Virus record (IMG/VR): IMGVR_UViG_3300046467_000991
Span: 1 to 22,747 of that record
Length of the DNA stretch: 22,747 bases
Reading direction: 5' to 3' (one strand)
From: a virus
The position numbers and the translations under genes were made by a program. Of this stretch, positions 3,287 to 22,485 are shown one piece after another (the first letter of the stretch is position 1; every line of letters begins with the position of its first letter). Below the pieces are notes generated by a model, which saw only the letters and a list, made by a program, of their open reading frames with translations, ran no database searches and was not told where the DNA came from.

Positions 3287-3877
3287 TTATGCAGTTGAAT
3301 CAACAACGTCTCCTATTTGGAATTCTATTGAAGCATTCCATGTAACTGGATCTGATCCAGATTTTTGAAATGACATTCTTTGTATTAAACCCTCCTCGTG
3401 GAATATATTATAACCGTCTGTATCATTCCTTAATATAAATTCATGTCTTTCTTCACTAGTAAAACCCCTCTTTTCAAACAATTCCGACAACGCTATCATT
3501 TGTCCATCTGCTGTTAGTAATGAATAATTTTGGTATGTGGAGCCTTCTTTAATTAATCTAGAGTAGTATGTTGATGTGGTAGATATACTTTGGTGTGGTA
3601 CTGATGTTATAGCCCCATCTGGCCATAAATCTTTCCAAGATGCCATTGAAGTGAAAGGTGTTGTTGCTTCATCTCTTATAACCCATCCAAATACAACCTT
3701 ACCAGTATTACCCTCTGCCTTTGTAATTATAGCAGATTCTTTGTAGTCTTCTGGCAACCCAAAAGTTGATGATGGCATTGCTAATGAATAATCAAAATTA
3801 GATAGGTTACTTGCTTCATATGCAATTTTCACTGCACCTAAACTATCCTTTAATTTTATCTGTATTTTATAGACCAT
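3287..3877 (-). CDS. Distal tail / baseplate protein downstream of tape measure
   Basis: This 196-residue protein has an ATG that shares one base with the tape-measure stop (TAATG), so translation is probably coupled. In siphovirus gene order the gene directly after the tape measure encodes the distal tail (Dit-like) protein, and the tail hub follows, as here. The sequence is beta-strand-rich, starting MVYKIQIKLKDSLGAVKIAY and ending EFQIGDVVDSTA, with no signal peptide or membrane segment. There is a single aromatic central stretch (SWKDLWPDGAI). I do not recognise a specific family motif, so the name comes from gene order. A LysM-like or gpM-like tail protein is an alternative. Confidence 0.65.
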   Translation of the reverse strand: MVYKIQIKLKDSLGAVKIAYEASNLSNFDYSLAMPSSTFGLPEDYKESAIITKAEGNTGKVVFGWVIRDEATTPFTSMASWKDLWPDGAITSVPHQSISTTSTYYSRLIKEGSTYQNYSLLTADGQMIALSELFEKRGFTSEERHEFILRNDTDGYNIFHEEGLIQRMSFQKSGSDPVTWNASIEFQIGDVVDSTA

Positions 3878-6800
3878 TAGACACTACCTCTCCTACTAGC
3901 TGCTTCTAATATCCATCTCTGTATTAATGGTTTTAATTTATTATAATCTGCTTCTTTTGTTATACTTCCTATGTATATATTTATAGGCGTACCATCATCA
4001 CTACCCATTTGATTCATTGGAGTAACCCATTCATTTCCTGTCTCACCAAAACTCCATTCATTACCACTATTTAATCCAATACCTATAATAGGTTCATCTA
4101 TAATACCACCAACAGCTCTTCTACTTCTTCCAGTAGATCCTTTACCTCCACCAGTTCCTTTTGAAGATCCACTTGATGTACCACCAGCACCACCTGTTGA
4201 CCCACCACTTCCTGAAGGGCCACTACTTCCACCTGGGCCTCTTCCTCCAGTGTTACCAGTTGATCCTCCACCAGTTCCTTTTGAAGATCCACTTGATGTA
4301 CCACCTTTTGATCCACCTGATGGCCCACTACTTCCACCTGGGCCTCTACTTCCAGTAAAACCACCACCACCAGAGTATGATGCTGGCCCTTGGGGGGCAG
4401 AGCCAAACGAACCAATATTAACATTTGAAGCATAACCATAATTTTTTGGTGCGACCTTTATTGCAGCTTGTGCTGCCTGTACATGAGGATGAGTTATTCC
4501 TGTTTGATCACCTAATGCTGCTAACCCTTCAAATGTTTGTAAGTTTAATCCTTGATCTTTTGCTAATGCTGCTGCTGCTAATCCAGCTTCTCCTCCACCA
4601 GCCATTACATATGCTTGACCTTCTGCTGCAGTAGAGAATGATCCTACTTTCCCAACGTGTGCTTGCTGTGCTTCGTTTTGTATTTTATTAACATATTGTT
4701 TATTATATATTCCTTGTATTCTTTGTCCTTCAGCTGATTTTGGGTCTATCTTTACTTTTTCGCCTGCAACGGTTTTATATACATCAAGGAATTTTCCTGG
4801 TGATGATTCAAATCTATTTCCTGCTATATCGCCAAGCATTTGTTGGCCACCTAGTTGTTTTAAAGCAGTTGCCTGTGCTTGTTCTCTACTCATAATTGGT
4901 TGTGTCACTGATACTTTTGTGCCTGGGCCACCAATATCTGATGGTTGCCCATAATGTGTCATACCACCTAAAGTATAAGTTCCTGGCCCAGTAATTTGTG
5001 CGTCAGCAACATCGTGTATATTTCTTGGTGGTTTTGGACTTCCTGTAGGTGTTCCACCCATGATTCCACCTGTAGCAATGTTTACTGCTGCCATTATAGT
5101 ATTTCCAGCAGTAGTTAATACATCTACTACTGTGTTAAATCCTGCACCTAAATCTATCTCTCCTATTTTAATTTCTCCAATCATGCTTGCTATACCTGTT
5201 TTTATTCCTTCCCCTAATCCCTGAACTCCATTCCATATAGTTTCTCCAACAGAAGTCATACCATCATAAATAACTGTACCTAGTCCTGCAATACCACCTA
5301 CAACTTGTTGTGTTGCACTTCCTATTCCAGCCATTGTATTTGTTACATTTTGCAAAGTCTGTCCAAAATTACCTCCTATACCAGATAACCATGTAACAAG
5401 ACCACCTAACACACTTCCTATTCCAGATACTATAGTTTGAAATGCACTTATTAGCCACTCCCAACCGTTTTGTAATGCTTGCCATATATTACGAAATCCA
5501 TCAGAAAGCCATGTATGTGCATCACCTAATACAGAATGAATATTACCAAAGAAATCTGTTATACCACCCCACATTGATTCCCAGTCAGTAGTATTAAATA
5601 ATGTACCAAGTAACATACCAAGTGGCCCACCAGCCATAATTCCACCAGTTATTGAATCCCAAAGTTTTGTAAATATATTATTTTCAGTTCCAAATTGTGC
5701 ATTAACCCCTGCTGATCCAAACGTTTTTTCTTCTAGTCCGTGCTGTTGTCTTAACCATTTTGCTGGATCTCTTTGGAATAAGTCTATCTCTTCTAGTGGC
5801 CCTCCTGCTTCTGCAAGTCCTGTTGACGGATCTACCCATGCTGGTGTTGCTTCAAATCCAAACAATCCTTTTAATGCTCCCCATCCCTGTGATATAGCTT
5901 TCATTGCACCACTGTAAATTGCCATTACTGGATCAATGAAAAATCCTAATGCTACATGACCCCATTTCTCACCTTCTTTCATCCAACCTCTTCCAGCTTG
6001 GAAGAATGGTATAGCAACTTCCTTAAGGAAATAAATAAATAATGGCCTAAAGAATGCACCGAAGAAATCTCCTATAGGTCTAAGAATTAATGTGAATGCA
6101 GTATTCATTATTTTCATCATGGCTGTCATAAGTGGAGATGCTTGTATAGCTTTTACGATTAATCCAGACGCTGCTGCCATCATTCCACCAGTCAAAAGAG
6201 ATCCACCCAATCCTTTTGGCATTTTTTCTGCAAGCGCACCACCAGTTTTTTGCCAAATCTTTCGAGCGCCACCTGTTACTTTTTGTACTATTGCGTTAGC
6301 TTTTGTTGCAGCAGACAGTCCTTTTGCAACCAGTTTAAATACATTATTATATTGCTGTTGAGCAAATTTTGCCATATTACCATACGCCTTTCGTAACACA
6401 GTTTGTTGTGCTGCTGTCATTCTACTCCAAGCCTTACCTAAGTGAGATTTTAATGAAGCTTGAAGTTGTCTTAAGTATCCCTGTAGTTGTTTTGGTAACA
6501 TGGAATATAAATTCTTAACTGCATTCTGGAAACTCTGTTGTAGTTTCATCCACACTGGTAAAGGTGGCATATTTTGCATTGGGCCTTGTTTCTTATTTTT
6601 CTTCTTCCCTGCAGTAATTAACTGTCTCATTAATTTACTTTGTAACTGTGCATTTGCAGCAATTTTACCCAAAGCATTAGCCATTAATTGTTGTACTTTT
6701 AATTGTTGTTGTAATAATTGTACTACTTGACCCTGATTTTTTTGAAATTTCTGGAACATACCACCCATCTGTGCTTGTCCTTTAATATGACCTTTAAGCT

Positions 6801-6882
6801 GTTTTTCCAGGTTTTTCATTCCTTTTAAACTGCTATCTTCAAAGCCTATACTAAAACTAGCTCCACCTTCTTCTTCACTCAT
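3877..6882 (-). CDS. Tail tape measure protein
   Basis: At 1001 residues this is the longest gene in the window, and it sits directly after the tail-chaperone pair, the diagnostic position. Residues 1-220 are helical and rich in Gln, Lys and Met. Residues about 225-295 form a hydrophobic stretch (LIVKAIQASPLM, FFGAFFRPLFIYFL) like the membrane-inserting segment of tape measures. The middle is full of W/G/I-rich repeats. Residues about 834-924 are a Gly/Ser linker built from duplicated units, followed by a folded C-terminus (EWSFGETGNEWVTPMN). At the usual ~1.5 angstrom per residue, a tail of roughly 150 nm is implied (inference). Start at 6882 is supported by a TATA box centred 25 nt upstream. 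The C-terminal end overlaps the next start by one base. Confidence 0.93.
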   Translation of the reverse strand: MSEEEGGASFSIGFEDSSLKGMKNLEKQLKGHIKGQAQMGGMFQKFQKNQGQVVQLLQQQLKVQQLMANALGKIAANAQLQSKLMRQLITAGKKKNKKQGPMQNMPPLPVWMKLQQSFQNAVKNLYSMLPKQLQGYLRQLQASLKSHLGKAWSRMTAAQQTVLRKAYGNMAKFAQQQYNNVFKLVAKGLSAATKANAIVQKVTGGARKIWQKTGGALAEKMPKGLGGSLLTGGMMAAASGLIVKAIQASPLMTAMMKIMNTAFTLILRPIGDFFGAFFRPLFIYFLKEVAIPFFQAGRGWMKEGEKWGHVALGFFIDPVMAIYSGAMKAISQGWGALKGLFGFEATPAWVDPSTGLAEAGGPLEEIDLFQRDPAKWLRQQHGLEEKTFGSAGVNAQFGTENNIFTKLWDSITGGIMAGGPLGMLLGTLFNTTDWESMWGGITDFFGNIHSVLGDAHTWLSDGFRNIWQALQNGWEWLISAFQTIVSGIGSVLGGLVTWLSGIGGNFGQTLQNVTNTMAGIGSATQQVVGGIAGLGTVIYDGMTSVGETIWNGVQGLGEGIKTGIASMIGEIKIGEIDLGAGFNTVVDVLTTAGNTIMAAVNIATGGIMGGTPTGSPKPPRNIHDVADAQITGPGTYTLGGMTHYGQPSDIGGPGTKVSVTQPIMSREQAQATALKQLGGQQMLGDIAGNRFESSPGKFLDVYKTVAGEKVKIDPKSAEGQRIQGIYNKQYVNKIQNEAQQAHVGKVGSFSTAAEGQAYVMAGGGEAGLAAAALAKDQGLNLQTFEGLAALGDQTGITHPHVQAAQAAIKVAPKNYGYASNVNIGSFGSAPQGPASYSGGGGFTGSRGPGGSSGPSGGSKGGTSSGSSKGTGGGSTGNTGGRGPGGSSGPSGSGGSTGGAGGTSSGSSKGTGGGKGSTGRSRRAVGGIIDEPIIGIGLNSGNEWSFGETGNEWVTPMNQMGSDDGTPINIYIGSITKEADYNKLKPLIQRWILEAASRRGSV
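4145..4347 (-). repeat. Internal direct repeats in the Gly/Ser linker of the tape measure gene
   Basis: Two exact 41-bp copies lie at 4145-4185 and 4265-4305 (offset 120), and a 23-bp pair lies at 4220-4242 and 4325-4347 (offset 105). They encode the repeated peptide GTSSGSSKGTGGG and the repeated RGPGGSSGPSG. The different offsets show a duplication followed by a small in-frame length change. Such repeats could let linker length vary by recombination. Confidence 0.9.
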
Positions 6883-6917: not shown

Positions 6918-7492
6918 CTATTGTCTCTTTTTCTTTTGGTGTTTTGCATGCATAGCCCTTGGATTTTTATGTTTTTTAGGCTTGCCAAATGGGCCACCTT
7001 TCGCTTGTTGTCCTACCTCCATACCCTTTGAGCCAGGAGTTAATTCATCCCTTAACACTACTAATAATTTCTTTATGTATTTAAATGGTTGTCTGTCTAC
7101 TTGTTCCTTATCCCACCCAAATTGGCTTGCACAGGTAACGTATATTTTATATACTAACTGATCTTGTTGATCGAGTCTTCGAAGGGTTTCATCATTTGAT
7201 TCAAGTAGTTCCCTAAAGGGTATGCTGCTAGTATCTTCTCTGCGATACTTGTAACCTCCTTATAACCTAACGAATTTAATCCATCTTCAGATATCTCAAA
7301 AGGTGCCTTTTTTAATGTGTTTAACATTATCTCCTTTCTGTATGTCTGAACGTTTGTAACTGGATTTGTTCCCTCTTGAAAATTAGCACACTTCTTAATT
7401 ATTTCCTCAAATTTACCAAAAGGCATATCATCTTCGTATTCTATTTCGGCAGCTACTCCCTTAAAATCTATAGTGAATGTCTTTAATCCCAT
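6918..7492 (-). CDS. Tail assembly chaperone GT fusion made by predicted -1 frameshift
   Basis: Predicted product of 191 residues: 93 residues in the frame starting at 7492, then a -1 slip on CCCTTTA (7220-7214), then 98 residues ending at the TAG at 6918-6920. The extension frame is open from 7259 to 6918 and overlaps the zero frame by about 106 nt. The extension begins RELLESNDETLRRL, contains FGWDKEQVDRQPFKYIKK and ends with a very basic tail (KPKKHKNPRAM, KKKRQ). In tailed phages the gene pair between tail tube and tape measure encodes G and GT chaperones by exactly this mechanism; the GT tail binds the tape measure or tube. The extension has no good start codon of its own near the overlap. 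Mechanism is inferred from frame geometry and gene order, not shown. Confidence 0.75.
7154..7492 (-). CDS. Tail assembly chaperone, short form (G-like)
   Basis: This 112-residue acidic protein (MGLKTFTIDFKGVAAEIEYE, then FGKFEEIIKKCAN) precedes the tape measure gene. The start at 7492 is supported by a TATA box centred about 25 nt upstream (7511-7523). The small size, the position between tail tube and tape measure, and an overlapping -1 frame continuing another 98 codons match the lambda-like G/GT chaperone arrangement. These chaperones coat the tape measure during tail assembly and are absent from the virion. No metal or catalytic motif is seen. The zero-frame stop is the TAG at 7154-7156. 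Confidence 0.78.
   Translation of the reverse strand: MGLKTFTIDFKGVAAEIEYEDDMPFGKFEEIIKKCANFQEGTNPVTNVQTYRKEIMLNTLKKAPFEISEDGLNSLGYKEVTSIAEKILAAYPLGNYLNQMMKPFEDSINKIS
7214..7220 (-). other. Predicted -1 ribosomal frameshift slippery heptamer CCCTTTA
   Basis: In the chaperone frame the codons are TAC CCT TTA GGG, so the heptamer C CCT TTA has the standard X XXY YYZ form and phase. Re-pairing in the -1 frame gives CCC TTT. It lies within the only stretch (7154-7259) where both frames are open. I see no strong downstream hairpin, only a weak GGG/CCC pairing. Confidence 0.68.
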
Positions 7493-7510
7493 AATACCAT
7501 GTTATTAAAT

Positions 7511-7523
7511 GTATATATAAAGG
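7511..7523 (-). promoter_or_regulatory. TATA box for the tail chaperone gene
   Basis: The minus strand reads CCTTTATATATAC, centred about 25 nt before the ATG at 7492, which predicts a leaderless transcript. It sits in the 34-bp gap after the tail tube stop. Confidence 0.62.
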
Positions 7524-7526
7524 TTT

Positions 7527-8558
7527 CTATAAAGCTGTTGCTATATTATTATCAGCAATTACGGATGCTGTCTTTGCTCTCCAGTTAATTGTTTCAAATA
7601 CTGGCTCTACTGGAACTATACCATCTATTGATATACTGTCTGGTCTAACTCCTGATAGTTTTAATGTTATTGCTTTCTTTGCAGTTCCACTTCCACCGTT
7701 ATCAAATGTTAATACTGCGTCTAATGCTGCACCAGCTACTCCTTCTCTGATGTATGATTTTGTTAGTGGTTTCTCTATTTGGTCAAGTATTTGTAGTAAT
7801 TTTTTATTGTTTACCCATGATGCATTGAAGTTTCCTGTTATATCAAACACTCTTCTGTATGAGGCTACTGCTCTATGTGATCCTACTGTATAAAGTAATG
7901 TTGGGTTTTGTCCAAATGTTACGTTTGCACTTTGTAATTCTGCTACTACAGATCCAGTTGCATCTGTATCTGCTGCGTCATCTCCATACCATCTTAGTTC
8001 TCCATGAGCAAATGTGTATGGGAAGTTAACATCATCATTTGGTGGGGCTGTATGATATGTTGTACCGTTATCTGTTTCATTTCCGTATGCTATATCAGCA
8101 GAACAATCAATTGTTCCGTCTATCGTAGCACCTATTGATAAAGAGTTTAATATACATCCAGTTGCTGTTCTTACAATGTTTGCATCTTGTGCTGCAAATC
8201 CTACTTCTACTGAGAAAGGAGTTACTGACTTTGCTCCAGAAACATCTCCAGTTGTACCCCATGTATGAACATATGGGCCAGTACCTGTTGTTGTTTGCGC
8301 TCCATAAAGCGCCCTAAAAATCCAAGGGTTTGATAATACGAAATCTACTGATAATGATCCTGCTTGTTGTCCGAAGGCATATTGTGCTACTTCGACTTGA
8401 TTGAGTCTTGGTAATTCTTTTGGTGAGTTTCCTAATGTCCATGATCCTAATCTGGCATTTAATCCGAATGCTTTATGAGTAGCGTTGTCAAAAGCAGCAG
8501 TACCAAATGTGTTTTCCCAGTCATATCTCACGTACGAGGATGCTCCTGTTCTTACCAT
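7527..8558 (-). CDS. Major tail tube protein
   Basis: This 343-residue protein is followed by the tail chaperone pair and tape measure, the standard position of the major tail protein. It starts MVRTGASSYVRYDWENTFG, a pattern seen in tail tube proteins of phages and haloarchaeal viruses. It contains EVAQYAFGQQAGSLSVDFVL (a beta-barrel strand pair) and GTIDCSADIAYGNET, and ends with a strand-rich segment (AITLKLSGVRPDSISIDG). No signal peptide or membrane helix is present. It would polymerise into the tube around the tape measure. No contractile-sheath gene is adjacent, so a siphovirus-like tail is indicated. A TATA box lies about 33 nt upstream. Confidence 0.85.
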   Translation of the reverse strand: MVRTGASSYVRYDWENTFGTAAFDNATHKAFGLNARLGSWTLGNSPKELPRLNQVEVAQYAFGQQAGSLSVDFVLSNPWIFRALYGAQTTTGTGPYVHTWGTTGDVSGAKSVTPFSVEVGFAAQDANIVRTATGCILNSLSIGATIDGTIDCSADIAYGNETDNGTTYHTAPPNDDVNFPYTFAHGELRWYGDDAADTDATGSVVAELQSANVTFGQNPTLLYTVGSHRAVASYRRVFDITGNFNASWVNNKKLLQILDQIEKPLTKSYIREGVAGAALDAVLTFDNGGSGTAKKAITLKLSGVRPDSISIDGIVPVEPVFETINWRAKTASVIADNNIATAL

Positions 8559-20294: not shown

Positions 20295-21017
20295 ATGAGT
20301 ACATTCTGTATTATTAGGGATAATGATGAAAAAACAGATTGTAATTTTGAAGGATTAGCATTAAGTGTAATAGAAGAATGGAAGCATAAATGGCAGCCAA
20401 AAAAATACAAGGATCGAAGGGGGAGAGTAAGAAAGTTTGGTTATGTTACATACAAGGTAACAAATGAATCAAAGAATTTTCCAGATGATAAGTTTGAAGA
20501 TAAGGCATTAACAATAGCATTAAGGCAGTGGGGTTTAAGAACAAAGGATATAAGATTTAAAAGAATAAGAACAGGCACAGCAGACATAGAGATGAGATTC
20601 TTACCAAAGGAAGAAGATAAAATGTTCAGGGATAGACCTGGTACTTTGGCATATGCATATTTTCCTAGTAACCAAAAAATTGGGGGTGATATAACATTTA
20701 ACGACAGTGTGATATGGACAACAGATGGTAAGTCTCTAAACGCACATAAGGTATACCCCGACAAGTATCCACCAAAAACCAAAACTAAACTTCGTACATA
20801 TAACATTATACATACATTACTTCACGAGTGTGGTCACTCAATCGGCCTTAAGCATTGCGAGGAACATAAAACTTGTATAATGTATCCTTACTACAATGGC
20901 AGGGTTGTACTACATAACCACGATGTTTCTCGTATTCAGTCTATCTATGGCGCACGAACACTTAGCAGCCGTATAATCGACATTTTTCGCAAACGAATGC
21001 TACGAAGGTGGAGTTGA
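20295..21017 (+). CDS. Matrixin-like zinc metalloprotease
   Basis: This 240-residue protein contains the metzincin motif HECGHSIGLKH (H177, E178, H181, H187), with zinc-binding histidines and catalytic Glu. It is followed by the Met-turn CIMYPYY (M196). Upstream, TLAYAYFPSNQKIGGDITF and NDSVIW match the matrixin strand region, and the C-terminal helix DVSRIQSIYG matches the family's closing helix. No signal peptide is seen; Cys5 and Cys16 in the N-terminus could act as a cysteine-switch-like or disulfide element (speculative). It is preceded by two membrane proteins and followed by a terminator. A role in cutting the protein S-layer during release or entry is inferred. Coding strand and composition match the neighbouring small genes. 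Confidence 0.9.
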   Translation: MSTFCIIRDNDEKTDCNFEGLALSVIEEWKHKWQPKKYKDRRGRVRKFGYVTYKVTNESKNFPDDKFEDKALTIALRQWGLRTKDIRFKRIRTGTADIEMRFLPKEEDKMFRDRPGTLAYAYFPSNQKIGGDITFNDSVIWTTDGKSLNAHKVYPDKYPPKTKTKLRTYNIIHTLLHECGHSIGLKHCEEHKTCIMYPYYNGRVVLHNHDVSRIQSIYGARTLSSRIIDIFRKRMLRRWS

Positions 21018-21981: not shown

Positions 21982-22141
21982 AGTCATCTGCATAGTTTGC
22001 CAGGAAACGATAGGTAGTCACAGCAAAAGGGGGTTGTGGAGATGTTTGTTCCGATGCCAAGGAACTCTGGTCGCTGCCAAATTAGAGGATGAATTACCCA
22101 CTGAGGATAAATCGGAGCCAAAAATCAACGTTAGGCATTGA
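21956..22141 (+). CDS. 61-residue zinc-binding mini-protein
   Basis: The ATG at 21956 is preceded by GGGGGAGGT, a strong ribosome site, inside the end of the previous gene. The peptide contains CIVC, then HS, then WRCLFRCQGT, giving two CxxC knuckles or related Cys pairs. The C-terminus is acidic (KLEDELPTEDKSEPK). It overlaps the nuclease start by 4 bases. Confidence 0.65.
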   Translation: MISNNQISRVICIVCQETIGSHSKRGLWRCLFRCQGTLVAAKLEDELPTEDKSEPKINVRH

Positions 22142-22485
22142 ACGAGCCTGAATTTGAGGCTAAGGTCATACGTGTACTAGACGGTGATACTGTTGATGTC
22201 GTATTTTCTTTTCCCTTTGGGATATCAGTGACCAAACGTGTAAGGATGTACGGAATTAATGCCCCCGAAACTCGTACGCGTAATAGGGAAGAGAAGTTAA
22301 GAGGCAAGTCTGCAAAAAAACGCCTCGTTGAACTGTTAGGCAAGGAGAGAGTTTGTATTATCAAGTATTATGGTGATGGTAAGTTTGGTCGTCCTCTTGG
22401 TGAGTTATTTGTTAATGGTGTTAATTTAAACCAGGTGCTTGTCAAAGAGGGCCACGCTGTTTCCTACTTTGGTGGAAAGAGATAA
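22138..22485 (+). CDS. Staphylococcal-nuclease-like (SNase/thermonuclease) nuclease
   Basis: This 115-residue protein starts at TTG 22138, overlapping the previous stop as TTGA. SNase motifs are present: VLDGDTVDVVF (D17), RVRMYGINAPETRT (R36 and E44 matching catalytic Arg35/Glu43) and GKFGRPLGELFVNG (R85 matching Arg87). The usual calcium ligand Asp40 is Asn41 here, a form I have also seen in phage relatives. Members cleave DNA and RNA with calcium. No signal peptide is present, so it would act in the cell, perhaps on host nucleic acid or replication products. Last gene of the zinc mini-gene operon. Confidence 0.88.
   Translation: MNEPEFEAKVIRVLDGDTVDVVFSFPFGISVTKRVRMYGINAPETRTRNREEKLRGKSAKKRLVELLGKERVCIIKYYGDGKFGRPLGELFVNGVNLNQVLVKEGHAVSYFGGKR

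Follow-up and report, generated by a model that had tools for sequence, protein, structure and literature searches.

How are 98 open codons expressed that follow a 112-codon gene in the -1 frame and have no start codon of their own? The question is raised by a locus in a viral contig of 22,747 nucleotides (IMGVR_UViG_3300046467_000991, hereafter "the window"), where the two frames lie between a tail tube gene and a tape measure gene. The answer that we favour, with a probability of roughly 0.93, is that the locus is a G/GT-type chaperone gene from a tailed virus of ammonia-oxidising archaea, and that its two predicted products arise through programmed -1 ribosomal frameshifting at the heptamer C_CCU_UUA.

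Gene layout between tail tube and tape measure

The features relevant to this question are all found on the minus strand:

7527 to 8558, minus strand: tail tube protein, the upstream neighbour (Pfam PF18906 Phage_tube_2, E 7e-14)
7514 to 7526, minus strand: putative archaeal promoter AAACC-TTTATATA (BRE-like element and TATA box), 29 nt upstream of the ATG
7154 to 7492, minus strand: zero-frame ORF of 112 aa with an ATG and an open frame, a predicted G-like tail assembly chaperone
7214 to 7220, minus strand: candidate slippery heptamer C_CCU_UUA, Pro-Leu in frame 0
6918 to 7214, minus strand: -1 frame extension (putative T-like domain), 98 codons plus TAG, supported by homologues, pN/pS and an FGWDKEQVD motif
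3877 to 6882, minus strand: tape measure protein, the downstream neighbour (PHROG 58, tail length tape measure, E 1.8e-12)

When all coordinates were derived anew, a layout previously read from the sequence alone (a 112-residue gene ahead of the tape measure, then 98 codons in the -1 frame) was recovered. Open codons in the -1 frame run from 7259 to 6921 and are closed by a TAG at 6920-6918; this frame overlaps the zero frame over 106 nt. The earlier claim that this frame lacks its own start also held in the window: neither ATG, GTG nor TTG occurs between its opening and the conserved FGWDKEQVD motif, and the earliest codons of this type are a GTG at 7058 and an ATG at 7022. A slip at C_CCT_TTA would join 93 residues to the 98 codons of the -1 frame, with a predicted product of 191 residues. 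The frames and coordinates of this fusion stand as first described, while its mass is computed as 21.9 kDa and not as the ~21.5 kDa then claimed. The ATG at 7492 is favoured as the start of the zero frame because of its spacing from the TATA box. Directly upstream of the ATG (positions 7492-7500) stands ATGGTATT: the ATGGTATTA with which the gene starts in relatives is repeated here out of frame.

The order tail tube, chaperone, tape measure was borne out by the profile matches of the genes directly upstream and downstream. The chaperone itself matched no sequence family when 14 members were scanned against Pfam and PHROG, and a search of the PDB by sequence and by fold gave nothing meaningful. 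An AlphaFold model of G (pLDDT 78) had a tail assembly chaperone as its best match in BFVD (E 5.9e-4, TM 0.51-0.58), followed by lower matches to further annotated chaperones, including one from Halobacterium phage ChaoS9. For the -1 extension, the model shows a short helical domain and a tail predicted at low confidence. Two uncharacterised BFVD entries from an uncultured archaeal virus, A0A1S5Y368 and A0A1S5Y388, have folds that match the G and T parts; they may represent a single gene of this kind that was annotated as two ORFs.

Conservation of the heptamer and of both frames

The overlap contains exactly one X_XXY_YYZ heptamer in the correct phase, as had been noted, namely C_CCT_TTA at 7220-7214. 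The window's own rate predicts 0.17 in-phase heptamers per overlap of 35 codons, and CCCTTTA itself occurs in phase once among the 4,872 codon positions of the window's main CDSs. Because 0.17 would be expected by chance, the lone heptamer is only mildly surprising and by itself would weigh little.

Conservation among homologues had been set beforehand as a check of this site. Viral contigs were searched first with the predicted fusion, which yielded 17 loci, and then with an alignment of 14 such fusions, which yielded 80; the combined set, the window included, comprises 93 loci with 64 distinct overlap sequences. Since the relatives are related by descent, these counts are not counts of independent events. 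Pairwise protein identity falls to 25%, and the 64 distinct sequences form about 10 clusters at 50% identity. Two subgroups are recognised, the window's (n=18), in which G has 112 aa, and a second one (n=46), in which G does not have that length. A basic C-terminal tail had been taken as a mark of the G/GT system; a long basic tail is confined to the 112-aa subgroup, and the proposal that it marks such genes in general was abandoned. Neither a tblastn search of INPHARED with the fusion nor a scan of genome contigs with the family alignment added to the set, the former giving no matches and the latter no provirus.

The C-terminal part lies in the -1 frame in all 93 loci, and none of the 64 distinct homologues has the two frames joined in-frame. 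CCCTTTA is present unchanged in every one of these loci (64 of 64 distinct overlaps), and on this ground we count the observation as settled. Information content reaches 2.0 bits at each of the seven positions and is about 0 at the flanking wobble positions (64 sequences). In several relatives (L016-L018, L059, L065 and L079) the -1 frame opens just 3 nt ahead of the heptamer; ribosomes must therefore enter that frame there or later.

Codon choice at the site is equally constrained. Frame 0 encodes Tyr, His, Phe or Ile followed by Pro-Leu, and the codon ahead of Pro-Leu always ends in C, a position where these viruses prefer T or A. Proline is always CCT (28% of Pro codons) and leucine always TTA (50% of Leu codons), while none of the 265 other Pro-Leu pairs in the same loci uses NNC CCT TTA. 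From codon usage, the chance of this combination is ~0.035 per lineage, a rough figure, and ~5e-8 over five independent lineages.

Selection was examined within the window's subgroup (18 sequences). The first 92 codons, ahead of the slip, have a pN/pS of 0.32, and the 18 frame-0 codons past the heptamer have 0.25. Past the overlap, the -1 extension gives 0.27, compared with 1.05 when the same stretch is read in frame 0. The low values in the frame-0 tail and in the -1 extension imply that both are real protein sequence, and the substitution pattern indicates that the extension is under purifying selection at the protein level.

We then considered whether the C-terminal part could be a gene in its own right, with translation either beginning at a start of its own, which may be non-canonical, or resuming by re-initiation close to the stop of the zero frame. 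Leaderless and re-initiating translation are both possible in archaea, and in 32 of the 46 loci of the second subgroup an ATG, GTG or TTG does precede the FGWD in the -1 frame, mostly a TTG at +24. The window, however, has no such start, 15 of the 18 members of its subgroup have none, and no start codon is conserved among the relatives. A separate gene would also leave unexplained why CCCTTTA is invariant and in phase with both frames, and why some -1 frames open just 3 nt ahead of it. We consider this explanation highly unlikely.

An alternative of lower probability still is that CCCTTTA is kept only through the protein's need for Pro-Leu and the constraint that two reading frames place on the bases. 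Bases in the overlap are indeed more conserved on account of dual coding, as in the GGG that follows the heptamer in the window's subgroup. Dual coding would not account for three synonymous choices fixed against codon bias in every lineage, and the bases directly upstream of the heptamer vary.

Transcriptional slippage requires a long run of a single base, and the conserved CCCUUUA contains no run of more than three. A slipping polymerase would likewise yield a fused product and is a known alternative to ribosomal frameshifting in some viruses (PMC5009743). For this locus we regard it as very improbable. Finally, single metagenomic contigs may carry indel errors, but one decayed or mis-assembled gene (by frameshift mutation or sequencing error) is refuted by the comparative data and has a negligible probability, as the same frame break is found in 64 distinct sequences down to ~25% identity, with purifying selection on both parts.

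Altogether, the comparative sequence supports the frameshift first read from the window, the heptamer being invariant and in-frame joins absent. Two proteins are almost certainly made from this tail-assembly gene by a -1 slip at CCCUUUA.

tRNAs, stimulatory elements and proposed mechanism

In the mechanism that we propose, the majority of ribosomes would terminate at 7154 and produce G, of 112 aa. In a minority, both tRNAs would re-pair: the P-site tRNA-Pro would move from CCU to CCC, the A-site tRNA-Leu would exchange UUA for UUU, and the product would be a GT of 191 aa. Predicted junction peptides are ILAAYPLR for the slip, ILAAYPFR if the P-site tRNA alone slips, and ILAAYPLGNYLNQMMK if no slip takes place. 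By analogy with lambda, the tape measure protein would be coated by many copies of G and few of GT, with tail tube subunits recruited through the T part. The occurrence of slippage, its rate and the chaperone function are all matters that we infer.

Genes for tRNA-Pro GGG and UGG are present in one Nitrosopumilus genome. With the GGG anticodon, the CCU to CCC slip would turn a G-U wobble into a G-C pair, and pairing would thus be improved. None of the tRNA loci that were read in one Nitrosopumilus genome proved to be for tRNA-Leu(UAA); some of these loci hold introns that are missed by the default setting of ARAGORN.

Upstream of the heptamer, the two subgroups differ. The 46 loci of the second subgroup carry a Shine-Dalgarno-like stretch of GGAGG type with a peak at 18-21 nt upstream, and its mean pairing energy is -7.4 versus -4.1 for synonymous recodings. 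GGAG or GAGG is kept in these loci despite differing amino acids (SGV, KEV, REV), and a matching GGATCACCTCC is present at the 16S 3' end of one Nitrosopelagicus genome, the end being read from an Rfam match. Such an element is missing from most of the window's subgroup and from the window itself. An AAGGAGG that the window does have, ~35-40 nt upstream, was rejected as a stimulator: it is too distant, and it is not retained in L007-L012.

Downstream of the heptamer, single-sequence folds compared with dinucleotide shuffles gave a mean z near 0 in the window's subgroup, and RNAalifold, run on 18 and 24 sequences, detected no pair changed on both sides in either subgroup. Dual coding (Gly in frame 0, Arg-Glu in the -1 frame) explains the GGG next to the heptamer in the window's subgroup, and this GGG was also discarded as a signal.

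Why CCCUUUA in particular was retained is a matter on which we would give even odds to the following proposal: the heptamer may have been fixed across the entire diversity of tailed viruses of Nitrososphaeria because it suits the thaumarchaeal ribosome and tRNA set, tRNA-Pro GGG for example, with a boost from a Shine-Dalgarno-like element ~13 nt upstream in one large subgroup and no recognisable stimulator in the window's.

Archaeal setting and comparison with known systems

The thaumarchaeal-type setting proposed by the sequence-only reading is supported by three kinds of evidence. One is promoter spacing: the TATA-box sequence begins 27-34 nt upstream of the start codon in 62 of 64 distinct loci, at -29 or -30 in 56 of those 62, and by its position this spacing is that of leaderless archaeal transcripts. 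Another is that, in INPHARED, the capsid and portal proteins match archaeal viruses only, namely HCTV-1, HVTV-1, HCTV-5 and near-identical records; the window's capsid also matches two methanogen-associated virus genomes there. The third is amoC, which is found on the contigs of four relatives (L104, L105, L106, L107) and not on the window itself. One amoC copy that was compared is 94-97% identical to Nitrosopumilaceae AmoC, and the aligned parts of the capsid proteins on the amoC contigs share 80-89% identity with the window's. The hosts are therefore probably ammonia-oxidising archaea (Nitrososphaeria), an assignment that extends to the window through its relatives.

Other genes were observed in the course of this analysis. 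On the amoC contigs of the relatives that were read, amoC lies near the capsid gene. Each of the five related contigs above 45 kb (L099-L103) encodes a full-length MCM helicase (an open frame of 651-673 aa). On the plus strand, the window encodes a Matrixin-type metalloprotease (20295-21017; Pfam M10, E 5e-28) and a small staphylococcal-nuclease-like protein with a TTG start (22138-22485; PF00565, E 7e-12).

Recoding on a thaumarchaeal-type ribosome had been put forward as what this locus, if real, would imply. Heptamer conservation and the archaeal setting support the proposal itself, but frameshifting in archaeal tailed viruses was not without precedent: -1 frameshifting in G/GT genes has been predicted for haloviruses HVTV-1, HCTV-1, HCTV-2 and HCTV-5 (PMC5009743). 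What is new is the host lineage, the invariant heptamer and the upstream Shine-Dalgarno-like element specific to the subgroup other than the window's. A well-known trick of bacterial viruses would thereby extend to one of the sea's most abundant archaeal groups, and a deeply conserved predicted -1 frameshift can be set against the one archaeal case shown experimentally according to a 2021 review, fucA1 of Saccharolobus solfataricus (PMC8211752). The short invariant site makes it testable which slippery sequences the archaeal ribosome accepts and whether Shine-Dalgarno stimulation operates in archaea. For annotation, the C-terminal half of the chaperone should be entered as part of a fusion and not as a separate hypothetical gene.

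Lambda G/GT and its homologues in long-tailed phages share with this locus the position between tube and tape measure, the overlapping ORFs, the -1 extension and the in-phase heptamer, and the G model resembles tail assembly chaperones. The locus departs from them in its heptamer, in its archaeal promoter and host, and in matching no sequence family.

Closer in lineage are HCTV-1, HVTV-1 and HCTV-5 (Druskaviridae), archaeal tailed viruses with the same gene order, a chaperone annotated as -1 joined, and capsid and portal proteins 23-28% identical to the window's. Their heptamers are, however, GGGAAAC (HCTV-1) and GGGAAAG (HVTV-1, HCTV-5), lie close to the zero-frame stop, and belong to chaperones whose similarity to the window's is undetectable by tblastn. 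Marine thaumarchaeal tailed viruses have been reported to carry amoC (Ahlgren et al. 2019, as cited in PMC6563490); four contigs with the chaperone gene resemble them in this respect, unlike the window, which is without amoC.

As for the heptamer, no paper tying CCCUUUA to phage or archaeal virus genes was found in the open literature that was searched. The same C_CCU_UUA was proposed, together with a proposed pseudoknot, for the CP/RdRp -1 frameshift of giardiavirus and was later disputed; giardiavirus is, in contrast, a eukaryotic dsRNA virus, and its heptamer is not kept in all isolates (PMC8230311). The S. solfataricus fucA1 shares -1 frameshifting on an archaeal ribosome with the reading favoured here, and differs in being a cellular gene with the heptamer A_AAA_AAT and no clear evolutionary conservation.
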